Both the position numbers and the translations under genes were made by a program. The notes beneath the pieces were generated by a model. It did not search any database and was not told the DNA's origin. It was given only the letters and a program-made list of their open reading frames with translations. This document shows, piece after piece, positions 52,092 through 56,739 of a DNA stretch of 64,000 nt (position 1 is the stretch's first letter; each line of letters starts with the position of its first letter). The DNA comes from Campylobacter concisus (GTDB lineage: Bacteria > Campylobacterota > Campylobacteria > Campylobacterales > Campylobacteraceae): contig NZ_PIRO01000001.1 of NCBI RefSeq assembly GCF_003048905.1, positions 1,116,001-1,180,000 of the forward strand, in the 5' to 3' direction.

Positions 52092-53096
52092 ATGATAGGT
52101 AGTGTAAATGGAGTTGGCACAAATTTTTATGTTGGCTCGCAAAGTAGTAGAGCGCAAGAGCTTGATAGTAAAAATACTAAATCCAATATAGACAAAAATT
52201 CTTTAAATAATTTATCTAGCAGTTTGGTTGATGAACGAAAAAGTCATACCGATACTAGAGGTGAGCCAATAAACTTAAATGAAACAAATACGACAAAATT
52301 TCAAAAAAATAGTGAGAATCTAACATTTGCTAGCAATTTTTCGCTATCAGGCATGGCTGCTAATGGCAAGATAAGCATCTGGGGCAAGCTCATGGGATAT
52401 GACAAACAAGTCAGTCAAGATGAGATAAATGATCTCAAAAATTTTATCAACCAGACTAAAGCACTTGGCTTTGGCAGAGCTCACGAAGAGATCATAGGAT
52501 ATTATCCAACAGATGTTGATCTCTTTGCAAAAGAGTACACGTCAAAACTTGATGGCAACATACTTCTCGGGCTTGGTCACAAGAGCCACGTGGAAGGGTT
52601 TGAGATACTTGATAAAGACCTAAGCATAGATGAGTTTAAAGATAAGTGGATTGATTATGCACTTAGGCAGTATCTTGGTGAAAGAGTCGGCGTGGAGAGC
52701 ATTACGATAGGCAAAAAGGCTATCTCTATGCTAACAAGCACTAATAAGCCTCCAGTTGAGTATCAGACGCTACAAAATATAAATTTTACTGACGAAGAGA
52801 GCAGACAGAGATTTCTTACGCTTATGAAAGCTGGCATGAAGAGTGGGGCGGATTTTAAAGAGGTGGTAGAGGGCGTGCTCTCGCTTTATAATATGCAAAA
52901 TACGGACAAACTTGATGGCAACAAAGTCTATGCTTCAGTGATCGGACGAAGCGAGAAACTGGCTACTTACGACATCAACAAAGATGAGAAATTTGCCTAT
53001 CTTAAGGAGCTAATGCAGCTTGAGAAAAACGGAGTTGATATACTAAAGCTAATGGAAAAAGTGGAGCAAAAACATAAACTAGATATAAAAGTGTAG
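52092..53096 (+). CDS. hypothetical protein, possibly flagella-coexpressed
   Basis: 334 residues, no signal peptide or membrane segment. The first 90 residues are rich in Ser, Asn and Thr and probably disordered (GSVNGVGTNFYVGSQSSRAQ); the remainder is helical, with SGMAANGKISIWGKLMGYDK, then TKALGFGRAHEEIIGYYPTD and LSIDEFKDKWIDYALRQYLG. I do not recognise a family. The disordered N-terminus plus the sigma-28-like promoter fit a protein exported by the flagellar system, such as the flagella-coexpressed proteins of Campylobacter; this is inference. It stands alone between two terminators. Confidence 0.6.
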   Translation: MIGSVNGVGTNFYVGSQSSRAQELDSKNTKSNIDKNSLNNLSSSLVDERKSHTDTRGEPINLNETNTTKFQKNSENLTFASNFSLSGMAANGKISIWGKLMGYDKQVSQDEINDLKNFINQTKALGFGRAHEEIIGYYPTDVDLFAKEYTSKLDGNILLGLGHKSHVEGFEILDKDLSIDEFKDKWIDYALRQYLGERVGVESITIGKKAISMLTSTNKPPVEYQTLQNINFTDEESRQRFLTLMKAGMKSGADFKEVVEGVLSLYNMQNTDKLDGNKVYASVIGRSEKLATYDINKDEKFAYLKELMQLEKNGVDILKLMEKVEQKHKLDIKV

Positions 53097-53157: not shown

Positions 53158-53219
53158 ACTTGGTTTAAATTTTTAAATGATAGAATCTTGATTTCTATTA
53201 TTAAAATTACGGAGAACTC

Positions 53220-53828
53220 GTGAGAAAGCTACTTTGGCTAAATCCCGTTGTAAAAAATATGTATGACTTCTCTGCATTAAAGGAGCTCTTGCAAAACAAG
53301 GGCTTTAACATAGTACAGTGCGAAAAAGATCATGTTAGCGATATCAAAAATTCATATAAAAATTTATGCTCTAAAGGTATGGTTTTAGACAGTCGCTGTC
53401 CAAGAGCTGTAAATTTTATAAGATCAAATTTTAAAGAATTTTCAAACGATATTTCAAGCTTAAATCCCATTTTAATAGAAAGCGCCATTGAGCTTAGCTC
53501 AAAGCTAAAAGAAGATGAGTGGCTTTATATAACAACGCCTTGTGAGGATTTGGCAGAGCTTGGAAATTCTTTAAAATTAGAGCGAACTACATTTTTAACA
53601 TGGAAAAATTTTAAAGAGTTAAACGACATAAATTTACAAATAAGCAAAATAGAATCAAGCCCGATCCCACCTGGATTTTTTGAAAATTTAGGCATAAAAA
53701 CACTAAGCTTATGCAGTAAAGAAAAGATACAAAACGCATTTTCATATAAATTTAGCGAGCTTAAAAACTATCAGATCATCGAGCTTTTATACTGCGAAAA
53801 CGGCTGTCACAATGGAGATGGGCTGTGA
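53220..53828 (+). CDS. compact [FeFe]-hydrogenase-like H-cluster-motif protein
   Basis: 202 residues, GTG start. Three cysteine motifs in hydrogenase order: DSRCPRAVNFI (Cys60, cf. TSCCPxW), ITTPCEDLAE (Cys108, cf. MPCxxK) and LLYCENGCHNGDGL (Cys192 and Cys196, cf. ACxxGCxxGGG). The four cysteines that hold the H-cluster are all kept, but the proton-relay cysteine beside the first is Arg59. There is no N-terminal ferredoxin domain, and the protein is far shorter than hydrogenase (over 350). So it may bind a [4Fe-4S] cluster and sense or sort metals rather than make H2. It overlaps the permease gene by four bases. Homology is seen by eye only. Confidence 0.5.
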   Translation: MRKLLWLNPVVKNMYDFSALKELLQNKGFNIVQCEKDHVSDIKNSYKNLCSKGMVLDSRCPRAVNFIRSNFKEFSNDISSLNPILIESAIELSSKLKEDEWLYITTPCEDLAELGNSLKLERTTFLTWKNFKELNDINLQISKIESSPIPPGFFENLGIKTLSLCSKEKIQNAFSYKFSELKNYQIIELLYCENGCHNGDGL

Positions 53829-54574
53829 TAGAAATTTTTAAAAAGAGCGTTTTGATCCTAGTGATCTTTGCTCTCTGGCAGGTCATTTGTGAGCTAGAAA
53901 TTTTCACGCCCTATATCTTGCCAAGTCCTATTACGACACTTAAAACGATGTTTGATATGAGCTTAAGTGGCGAGCTAATAACGCATGTGATGATTAGCTT
54001 TAAGCGTATATTTGTTGGTTATATTTTGGCTTTTATTTTGGCATTTGCTTTTGGCGGAGTGGCGGCGCTATTTCCAAAAGCTAGCATTTATTACGAGTGG
54101 ATTTTAGAATTCTTTAGAAATGTTCCACCGCTTAGCCTTATTGCTATTTTAGTGCTTTGGTTTGGCATAAACGAAACTCCAAAAATTATTATTATCATCC
54201 TAGCATCGTTTTTCCCGATGTTTTTAAGTATTTCAAAAGGGCTAACTAGCTGCGATGTGAAGCTTATTGAGGTTGGTAAAATTTTTTGTTTTAGTAAATT
54301 TGAAATTTTTTACAAAATCATCCTAAAAAATGCCATAAAAGATATTTTTGTCGGTATGCGCATAGGTTTTGGCTACGCGATGCGAGCGATTGTGGGAGCG
54401 GAGATGATCGCAGCTTCAAGCGGGCTAGGCTACCTCATACTTGACGCTGAGGAGCTTTCGCGTGCAGATAGGATATTTGTAGGCATTTTTACGATTGGAA
54501 TTTGTGGCGTACTCATAGATAGGATATTTTTATTTTTGATATCTAAATTTAGCCTTTTGCGAGGTGAGAAATGA
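53825..54574 (+). CDS. ABC importer permease (SsuC/TauC-like)
   Basis: 249 residues, GTG start coupled to the preceding stop (GTGA). Six membrane helices; the ATPase-docking loop reads SKGLTSCDVKLIEVGKIF (an EAA-like loop), and ARAIVGAEMIAASSGLGYLI is typical of nitrate/sulfonate/taurine permeases. With the ATPase and the binding protein it makes a complete importer; the substrate is unknown. Confidence 0.88.
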   Translation: MIEIFKKSVLILVIFALWQVICELEIFTPYILPSPITTLKTMFDMSLSGELITHVMISFKRIFVGYILAFILAFAFGGVAALFPKASIYYEWILEFFRNVPPLSLIAILVLWFGINETPKIIIIILASFFPMFLSISKGLTSCDVKLIEVGKIFCFSKFEIFYKIILKNAIKDIFVGMRIGFGYAMRAIVGAEMIAASSGLGYLILDAEELSRADRIFVGIFTIGICGVLIDRIFLFLISKFSLLRGEK

Positions 54575-55263
54575 TAGAAATTTCAAATTTATCCAAGCAT
54601 TTTTTTATAGGCGAAAAGCGGATCGACGTTTTAAGAGAGCTAAGCTTAAACATAAAAAAAGATAAGATCACCGTCATACTCGGCAGAAGCGGATGTGGCA
54701 AAACTACGCTCTTGCGCCTTATCGCTGGTCTTGAGAGCGTAAGTCTTGGCGAGATAAAATTTAAAGAGCAAGCAAAGATCGGCTTTGTCTTTCAAGAGCC
54801 TAGGCTCATGCCTTTTTTAAATGTCTATGAAAATATCGTATTTGCGCTTAAAAAGCATGAGATAGACGAGGCAAAGATAGATAGGCTCATATCAATGATA
54901 GGGCTTAGCGACTTTAAATTTGCCGCTGTTTCGCAGCTATCTGGCGGTATGAGCTCGCGTGTTTCGCTTGCAAGAGTGCTTGCGTACGAGGCAAATTTGA
55001 TCCTTATGGATGAGCCATTTGCGGCGCTTGATGCTTTTACGAGAGCCAGCATGCAGGCTGAAATTTTAAAGCTTCAAGCCGGCAAAACCATCATTTTTGT
55101 CACTCATAATGTCGATGAAGCCCTATATTTAGCAGATGAGATAATTTTGCTTGAAAAAGGCGGGATGAAATCAAACTATGACCTGTCAAATCTAGCTAAG
55201 CCAAGAGATTTGCTTTGCAATGAATTAATAAATTTAAAGCGTAAAATTTTAAGTGAAATTTAG
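54571..55263 (+). CDS. ABC importer ATPase (SsuB-like)
   Basis: 230 residues. Walker A GRSGCGKT (38-45), Q-loop VFQEPRLMPF, signature LSGGM (123-127), Walker B LILMDEP (143-149) and switch His in FVTHNVDEAL. The signature's S-R tail (SSRVSLARVLA) is normal. Starts four bases inside the permease gene (ATGA). Confidence 0.93.
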   Translation: MIEISNLSKHFFIGEKRIDVLRELSLNIKKDKITVILGRSGCGKTTLLRLIAGLESVSLGEIKFKEQAKIGFVFQEPRLMPFLNVYENIVFALKKHEIDEAKIDRLISMIGLSDFKFAAVSQLSGGMSSRVSLARVLAYEANLILMDEPFAALDAFTRASMQAEILKLQAGKTIIFVTHNVDEALYLADEIILLEKGGMKSNYDLSNLAKPRDLLCNELINLKRKILSEI

Positions 55264-55308
55264 CATTTTATAAAATGATAATTAAAACCAAAACGAAGCA
55301 AAAAGTTA

Positions 55309-55314
55309 TATAAT
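55309..55314 (+). promoter_or_regulatory. possible -10 box before the binding-protein gene
   Basis: TATAAT in GTTATATAATTTGG, 26 bases before the ATG. It might provide extra transcription of the binding protein, commonly needed in excess. Confidence 0.4.
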
Positions 55315-55339
55315 TTGGAAAATTTTTAAAGGAGCAAAT

Positions 55340-56257
55340 ATGAGAAAGTTTTTTAAGATTTTGTGTGCAGCCTCTTTGCTTTGTCTAGTCGCAAACGCAA
55401 GTGAGCTAGATAAGATCGGTATGACCTATGTCAAATCGCCACTAAACGTCCCTTCAATCGTCGATAAATTTAAAGGCTTTTATGCTAAATATTTTGGCGT
55501 ACCGGTAGAGTACTCTGAGATAACATCAGGTGCAAAGCAGACTCAAGCTCTAGCTTCAAATTCGCTCCAGTTTCTAAACTGCGTGGGCGGAACTTCAGTC
55601 ATACTTGCTGCGGCAAATAAAGCTGACATAAAGATCATAAGTGCCTATTCAAGAGCACCTGAAGCTTTTGCAATATTTGCTAAAGATAAAGGCATAAAAA
55701 CCGCTAAAGACCTAAAAGGTAAAAAAATAGCAGGGCCAAAAGGTACGATATTAAATGAGCTTTTGGTTAGGTATCTTGCTCTTAGCGGTCTAGGCATAAA
55801 TGACGTAGAGTTCGTTTCTATGGGCATCCCAGCTGCACAAGCTGCACTTGAAAATGGTAGCGTCGATGCAGCACTTCTTGCTGGACCAGCTGCTTATAAT
55901 GCTAAAAAATCAGGACTTAGTGTTGTAACAACAGGCAAGGGCGTCATCACTCCAGTCATCGTTACTGCCACAAGCGGAGAATTTTACAAAAAGCATAAAG
56001 ATATAGTTGAAAAATTTAAAAAGGCTCAAGATGAAATTTTGGCTTTTATGAAAGCAAATGAGGAAGAGGCATTAAAATTTACAGCTGAAGAGACTGGGCT
56101 TAGCATAGAGGCGGTAAAGAGTATGTATCCTCAGTATGACTTTAGTCCAAAGATCACGCCTGAAGATATAAAAGCACTTGAGGCTACGCAAGAATTTATG
56201 CTCGAGAGTAAGATGATTGAACAAAAAGTAGATATAAAATCGCTTCTAATAGATTAA
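55340..56257 (+). CDS. ABC importer substrate-binding protein (SsuA/NMT1-like)
   Basis: 305 residues, exported (ILCAASLLCLVANASE). It has the two-lobed NMT1/SsuA fold: GMTYVKSPLNVPSIVDKFKG, then DLKGKKIAGPKGTILNELLV and ALENGSVDAALLAGPAAYNA. Related proteins bind aliphatic sulfonates, nitrate or thiamine precursors; the ligand cannot be read from the sequence. It ends at a strong terminator that closes the four-gene unit. Confidence 0.88.
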   Translation: MRKFFKILCAASLLCLVANASELDKIGMTYVKSPLNVPSIVDKFKGFYAKYFGVPVEYSEITSGAKQTQALASNSLQFLNCVGGTSVILAAANKADIKIISAYSRAPEAFAIFAKDKGIKTAKDLKGKKIAGPKGTILNELLVRYLALSGLGINDVEFVSMGIPAAQAALENGSVDAALLAGPAAYNAKKSGLSVVTTGKGVITPVIVTATSGEFYKKHKDIVEKFKKAQDEILAFMKANEEEALKFTAEETGLSIEAVKSMYPQYDFSPKITPEDIKALEATQEFMLESKMIEQKVDIKSLLID

Positions 56258-56259
56258 AC

Positions 56260-56284
56260 AAAAAGGGCAAATTTGCCCTTTTAT
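56260..56284 (+). terminator. terminator of the ABC importer operon
   Basis: AAAAGGGCAAATTTGCCCTTTT palindrome right after the stop; the T-run is short. Confidence 0.8.
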
Positions 56285-56463: not shown

Positions 56464-56739
56464 ATGATCCCATTTAGCGATGAAGAACTTTTAAAACCAG
56501 TCAGTGCGAGTTTGCAAAAGGTATTACCGATGCTTGAAAATGATGGTGGTGGCATGGAGCTACTTGGCATAAAAAACGGCAAAATTTATGTAAGGCTTAC
56601 AGGGCATTGCCATGGATGTGCAGCTAGTACAACTACACTAAAGTATGGACTCGAAAGACAACTTCGTATGGATATTCACCCAGAGCTTGAGGTCGTAAAT
56701 ATCCCGATTGGCGAGGAATTTGACATTGATAGATTATAA
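56464..56739 (+). CDS. NifU C-terminal domain (Nfu) protein
   Basis: 91 residues. The Nfu motif GHCHGCAASTTTLKYGLE has the C-x-x-C that carries a [4Fe-4S] cluster to target proteins. MLENDGGGMELLGIKNG is the other signature. It overlaps the start region of the next gene and leads a long operon to the polyprenyl synthase. Confidence 0.9.
   Translation: MIPFSDEELLKPVSASLQKVLPMLENDGGGMELLGIKNGKIYVRLTGHCHGCAASTTTLKYGLERQLRMDIHPELEVVNIPIGEEFDIDRL

Follow-up and report, generated by a model that had tools for sequence, protein, structure and literature searches.

A small relative of the [FeFe]-hydrogenase H-domain is tied to a single ABC importer in Campylobacter and Clostridia and, in relatives, is linked to iron starvation

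We analysed a stretch of 64,000 nucleotides from Campylobacter concisus (contig NZ_PIRO01000001.1, positions 1,116,001 to 1,180,000; hereafter the window) and focused on a four-gene unit within it: a gene for a 202-amino-acid protein resembling the H-domain of [FeFe]-hydrogenases (the H-like protein), followed by genes for the permease, ATPase and binding protein of an ATP-binding cassette (ABC) importer of the NitT/TauT family. The features of the unit are as follows, in window positions.

53179-53203, + strand: conserved promoter-region element, GATAGAAT (-10-like) and then TGATTTCTATTATTA, conserved in Campylobacter relatives
53220-53828, + strand: gene of the H-domain-like protein, 202 amino acids, GTG start, with GGAG at 53211-53214
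53388-53411, + strand: L1 motif D57-S-R-C60-P-R-A-V64, with Arg59 where the proton-relay Cys would be
53532-53558, + strand: L2 motif T105-T-P-C108-E-D-L111-A-E113, with Leu111 where the cyanide-anchoring Lys would be
53790-53822, + strand: L3 motif Y191-C192-E-N-G-C196-H-N-G-D-G201, at the extreme C-terminus
53825-54574, + strand: ABC permease of the NitT/TauT (SsuC/TauC-like) family, BPD_transp_1, overlapping the H-like gene by 4 nucleotides
54571-55263, + strand: ABC ATPase
55340-56257, + strand: periplasmic substrate-binding protein, SsuA/TauA-like (NMT1), with the signature YVKSPLNVPSI
56261-56282, no strand assigned: perfect inverted repeat AAAAGGGCAAATTTGCCCTTTT, a possible terminator, after the last gene

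An earlier note, made from the sequence of the window, had placed Cys60, Cys108, Cys192 and Cys196 in three motifs (DSRCPRAV, TTPCEDLAE and YCENGCHNGDG) that follow the L1-L2-L3 order of [FeFe]-hydrogenases, with the proton-relay Cys replaced by Arg59 and all ferredoxin domains absent. We found the four cysteines in these motifs of the open reading frame and no ferredoxin domain in the 202 residues; a segment equivalent to (F)GxTGGV is also missing. The stop codon overlaps the GTG start of the SsuC-like permease gene, and the ATPase and binding-protein genes come next, as the note had described. The product is predicted to be a cytosolic [4Fe-4S] protein that lacks both ferredoxin domains and the residues of the [2Fe] pocket.

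The H-like protein is genuinely related to the H-domain of [FeFe]-hydrogenases. Its score for PF02906 (iron-only hydrogenase large subunit, C-terminal domain) is 25 bits, where the gathering score is 22.1 (E=1.8e-5); of 17 diverse homologues, 13 match the same family, the best at 3e-9. An alignment of the family profile with 15 [FeFe]-hydrogenases from related genomes (hhalign) gave E=1.6e-9 over 198 columns and put C60, C108, C192 and C196 on the cluster ligands of L1, L2 and L3, which bears out the motif order first claimed. An AlphaFold2 model built from a 6-sequence alignment reached a predicted local distance difference test score (pLDDT) of 84 and a predicted template-modelling score (pTM) of 0.80, with low confidence in the final residues, part of L3 among them. 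The 50 PDB matches that rank highest for this model are [FeFe]-hydrogenases without exception (best E 9.4e-6, query TM-score 0.70). Structure prediction thus recovered the hydrogenase fold; whether the four cysteines meet was judged through the alignment to known structures, by which they would converge in space. Searching the PDB with the single window protein (phmmer) returned noise alone, and the family profile matched hydrogenases there with weak E-values. Since PF02906 is above its cut-off, the profile alignment is at E=1.6e-9 and the predicted fold is of the hydrogenase type, we dismiss chance resemblance. When genomes were searched with PF02906, the window protein itself escaped detection, and we did not rely on absences from that search alone.

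Conservation was scored in an alignment of the 17 diverse homologues. The invariant residues are N8 P9, D57 R59 C60 P61 and P83 I84 L85, then P107 C108 L111, W128 and S147 P148 G152 F154, and towards the C-terminus E188 C192 G195 C196 G199 G201. All four candidate ligands are thus kept in 17/17, and no other Cys is invariant. Two of the outcomes that the earlier note had named as refuting it, a missing match to the iron hydrogenase family and unconserved cysteines, did not arise. In a joint alignment with hydrogenases, the proton-relay position (CpI C299) is Arg in 17/17 family members and Cys in 15/17 hydrogenases; the position of the Lys that anchors the distal cyanide (CpI K358) is Leu in 17/17 family members and Lys or Arg in 17/17 hydrogenases. 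The Met that frames the diiron site is Leu in 16/17 family members. The roles given here to the pocket residues are those established for CpI. The family shares with the group A hydrogenase CpI the fold, the order of L1, L2 and L3, the four cysteines and an N-terminal (A/N)P motif, but at 202 amino acids it ends at L3 and carries Arg for the relay Cys and Leu for the Lys. One family member (L080:6478-7467, G679) has a repetitive insertion of about 100 residues (GLAEDGREMSVSLAG...) between L1 and L2, with all motifs kept. In another genome (G575, L092:1282-3030), a 583-residue group A-like [FeFe]-hydrogenase has TSCSP for TSCCP, with one [4Fe-4S] ligand Cys changed to Ser.

The hosts are gut and oral Campylobacter, and Clostridia. 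Of 25 tested members of the window's genus, 15 have a close homologue. More distant homologues, at about 40% identity, are present in [Clostridium] asparagiforme and in another Campylobacter genus, which is of jejuni/lari type as inferred from gene neighbourhood. A homologue is carried by about 2% of the genomes sampled from the family of [Clostridium] asparagiforme, which we take to be the Lachnospiraceae, and by about 1% of the sampled genomes of its class. The maturase HydF scored above its curated cut-off in 11 of 43 gene-carrying genomes: 2 of 31 Campylobacter and 9 of 12 Clostridia. In the window genome HydF is absent, as is HydG, for which there is just a ThiH-level match. Within the genus, HydF is present in 4/10 tested genomes without the H-like gene versus 2/28 with it. 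In two Campylobacter genomes there is a genuine periplasmic [FeFe]-hydrogenase operon that includes hydG-hydE-hydF, a feature already described for C. rectus and C. ureolyticus (PMC4794192). Genome G1016 encodes several full-length [FeFe]-hydrogenases, yet no HydF above the cut-off; all its matches are on one large contig.

In most hosts, then, the H-like protein does not need HydF. Because the relay Cys and the cyanide-anchoring Lys are invariantly lost, and 29 of the 31 Campylobacter hosts have no HydF, it is most likely a protein with a single [4Fe-4S] cluster that has lost the diiron site. The view in the earlier note of a reduced, non-catalytic cluster protein is strongly supported by homology, fold, the invariant ligand cysteines, the lost relay Cys and Lys, and the absence of maturases from most host genomes. 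A working minimal [FeFe]-hydrogenase has next to no chance of being the right reading. H-domain homology and the presence of all four ligand cysteines speak for it, and it is contradicted by the loss of the relay Cys and Lys, the missing (F)GxTGGV segment and the maturases absent from most hosts; the C. difficile operon described below is also regulated opposite to hydA (PMC6311696).

The gene order H-like protein, permease, ATPase, binding protein was found in 21 of 24 contexts. Two of the three exceptions are contig ends (L076, L088) and the third is a recent deletion (L020). In the latter genome (G021, L020:6579-7943), the importer is deleted past the permease start, leaving a 93-codon remnant, and the H-like gene is intact; a relative, G225 (L046), retains the full permease. 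The H-like protein has diverged in step with the importer: its pairwise distances correlate with the distances for permease, ATPase and binding protein alike (r=0.89-0.91, permutation p about 2e-4). Genomic locations differ among hosts, so the four-gene unit moves as a block; our search for plasmid carriage of the unit found no match. The claim that the protein is wired to the importer is therefore strongly supported, with an obligate four-gene unit in two phyla and distances that co-evolve: the H-like gene lies beside the importer in other Campylobacter and also in Clostridia. We see here a real and unusual feature, a bacterial H-domain stripped for a non-hydrogenase role and tied to one importer, of which the structure and the linkage are secure.

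The dependence runs in one direction. In our Clostridia sample, at least eight operons have the importer without the H-like gene. On the binding-protein tree, presence of the H-like gene needs five changes, which is compatible with one gain and several losses. Since the importer is found without the H-like gene, and not the converse, the H-like protein is an accessory that depends on the importer. The window binding protein is closest to TauA/SsuA in fold and likewise in sequence, and scores above the cut-off for the SsuA subfamily TIGR01728. With SsuABC/TauABC the unit shares the permease, ATPase and binding-protein families, all in one operon; it differs in forming a separate clade with a YVxxPLNxPSI signature, in its iron-type operators, and in that sulfonate-degrading enzymes were not seen nearby. 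We rejected two other substrates: import of a thiamine precursor (NMT1/THI5 fold), as no thiamine pyrophosphate or other riboswitch was found and TauA/SsuA is closer; and selenium or organometal (Sao) transport, as SaoP, SaoA and SaoX were far below cut-off. More distant relatives of the binding protein (L142, L143 and L144, 127-177 bits) adjoin, as judged by eye, nitrogenase-like genes (L142 and L144) and BcrAD-type activator-like genes (L143).

We compared the operon promoters with 412 background promoters from the same loci. A Fur-box match of at least 12/14 precedes the operons of L052, L053, L054, L079, L085 and L086, a level reached by 1/412 background promoters; it also precedes L136, an importer operon without the H-like gene. 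The carriers are jejuni/lari-type Campylobacter and several Clostridia. Six Lachnospiraceae operons are instead preceded by the palindrome GTTAGN6CTAAC at 9-10/10 (background 1/412), and a seventh, L078, has it at 9/10. In 1.2 Mb scanned of E. asparagiformis we found 12 perfect copies, where we estimate about 0.8 from base composition, all within about 70 kb (L180-L183, G308, 2.66-2.73 Mb) that form an iron-acquisition island. Two of the copies precede the gene of a DtxR-type iron-dependent repressor, and others stand before genes for a FecCD siderophore permease, a ZIP transporter, ABC pairs and further products. Because they mark the DtxR-type repressor, FecCD and ZIP genes, the palindrome is very probably the operator of an iron (or metal) repressor. 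Trep_Strep and DUF3793 genes are among those that have a copy of the palindrome upstream in the island, and both thereby gain an iron link.

Published expression data for an identically annotated operon of C. difficile agree with a role in iron starvation. In the published iron table, CD630_29890-29920 are listed as ssuA2, ssuB2, ssuC2 and an "uncharacterized protein, iron hydrogenase-like" (PMC6311696). This set, CD2989-CD2992, resembles our unit in its four genes, their order and its induction at low iron: its RNA changes by log2 +2.6 to +3.5 when iron is low and by +4.4 to +6.1 when fur is mutated, a rise of 6- to 70-fold, and the CD2992 protein changes by +5.8 log2 in the fur mutant (PMC6311696). 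The hydA operon falls in the same data (hydA -2.6/-3.1 log2; PMC6311696). The earlier note knew of no such pairing. An identically arranged operon had thus been published, but the pairing passes without comment in the table, and we found no discussion of it in the literature. We conclude that the four-gene operon belongs to the iron-starvation response, a link that is new here and that the earlier note had not seen. The link is good for Clostridia and for jejuni/lari-type Campylobacter; it is not established for the Campylobacter of the window.

An iron-starved cell cuts its Fe-S enzymes yet makes more of this one, and for this reason the H-like protein probably helps the cell to obtain or manage scarce iron. 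We tentatively propose an iron-starvation module, to which we give slightly less than even confidence, in which the H-like Fe-S protein acts on an imported iron-related ligand in the manner of FhuF. The NitT/TauT-type importer would bring in a small anionic ligand related to iron, either an iron chelate or a compound by which the cell obtains iron. In the cytosol the H-like protein would act on it, most likely in the role of a redox partner, reducing the iron and so releasing it. The ligand-binding site may be the cavity vacated by [2Fe], beside the cluster and lined by the invariant Arg59; electrons passed to the bound ligand would release the iron, as FhuF does in siderophore uptake. Everything in this scheme, beginning with the identity of the ligand, is inference. 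FhuF is a cytosolic [2Fe-2S] protein that reduces imported ferric siderophores, and the siderophore-interacting proteins are flavoproteins; ferric siderophores are proven substrates of these proteins. They are like the H-like protein in being cytosolic redox proteins co-regulated with iron importers, and we propose FhuF as a functional analogue. Their folds are unrelated to that of the window family, and we claim no homology to FhuF. In its strongest form, the proposal would be a new class of intracellular ferric-chelate reductase derived from the [FeFe]-hydrogenase domain, with the chelate bound in the empty cavity and a NitT/TauT importer as partner, in gut anaerobes and campylobacters; we consider this form doubtful. 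As for the first interpretation overall, a reduced, non-catalytic protein tied to an importer has stood, and the idea that it senses or handles the imported substrate stays at the level of suggestion.

Several points weigh against the iron-ligand proposal. Import does not need the H-like protein, because the importer occurs alone in at least eight operons. The nearest solved binding proteins take sulfonates and phosphonates, not iron chelates. Cluster binding, though most likely, is a prediction. In the window promoter, the conserved element just behind the -10-like box matches a Fur box at 10/14, a level that 20% of background promoters reach. The authors of the C. difficile study found no Fur box before the operon and call it a sulfonate transport system linked to sulfur metabolism (PMC6311696). 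CD2992 would belong to the family on the grounds of gene order and annotation, and it is on these grounds that we liken the C. difficile operon to ours.

We weighed the proposal against other roles for the protein. It might be a sensor or regulator, a [4Fe-4S] protein that monitors iron or Fe-S status, O2 or redox conditions in the cell and either gates the importer or acts on its expression in trans, leaving the ligand untouched. Its gene is the first of the unit and overlaps translationally with the permease gene in the window, and the importer persists in genomes without it, as expected for an accessory regulator. The putative sensory hydrogenases of groups C and D (TmHydS, TamHydS) have likewise lost the relay Cys, which is the sole one of the two losses they share, and the Met497 position is often replaced in them (PMC8163306). 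These proteins retain a real H-cluster as well as clusters at the N- and C-termini, whereas the window family has lost the Lys and all extra clusters. The H-like protein carries no signalling domain, Fur- or DtxR-type operators already provide iron control, and the more than 30-fold rise of CD2992 protein in the fur mutant (PMC6311696) is high for a sensor. We regard this role as unlikely. Equally unlikely, in our view, is uptake of a sulfonate or related sulfur compound by the importer under iron stress, with the Fe-S protein assisting in its reduction or desulfurisation. The TauA/SsuA affinities of the binding protein and its TIGR01728 score fit such organosulfur supply, and the C. difficile study remarks that sulfur and iron are co-regulated (PMC6311696). 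In the contexts read, though, no desulfonating enzyme of the SsuD, TauD or IslA type was seen beside the unit, and the direct presence of iron-type operators in several lineages favours iron over sulfur.

That the unit serves hydrogenase maturation, by supplying or carrying a precursor or acting as a scaffold for H-cluster assembly, seems to us highly improbable. In two Clostridia (G452 and G728), the sole hydF of the genome adjoins the unit or importer, with hydE directly upstream. Such adjacency would rarely arise by chance. Yet in G452 the unit is preceded by an iron-type operator of its own, which hydE and hydF lack, and most hosts have no HydF, so we treat the adjacency as a minor lead. 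Nor is HydF any commoner in the genus with the H-like gene than without it, by the counts given above, and the Lys that would anchor cyanide is gone. The FhuF-like iron module is the reading that we prefer.

Two neighbours of the unit in the window were also considered. Upstream, positions 52092-53096 encode a 334-residue protein with a sub-threshold hint (11 bits versus a cut-off of 80) of the Cj0814 flagellar-dependent secreted family. Downstream lies an Nfu-like gene (56464-56739), for which we rejected a functional tie: in other genomes the unit sits at unrelated places, such as the dnaE neighbourhood (L016) and other loci (L052-L054), so the Nfu-like neighbour looks like chance placement. 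Inverted-repeat sites like the one after the last gene are not more numerous in the region than in shuffled sequences.

The family offers a bacterial parallel to eukaryotic Nar1, in that an H-domain has lost its diiron site and been put to use outside hydrogen metabolism. Nar1/NARF are larger, hydrogenase-like Fe-S proteins of eukaryotes with two cluster sites that act in cytosolic Fe-S assembly, and like the window family they put an H-domain without a [2Fe] site to a non-hydrogenase role; we know of no importer partner for them. Our analysis gives a testable role, in iron starvation, to a conserved and unexplained operon for which the C. difficile data suggest strong induction. Should the importer carry an iron ligand, the sulfonate-transporter family would hide an overlooked branch of iron acquisition in host-associated bacteria.

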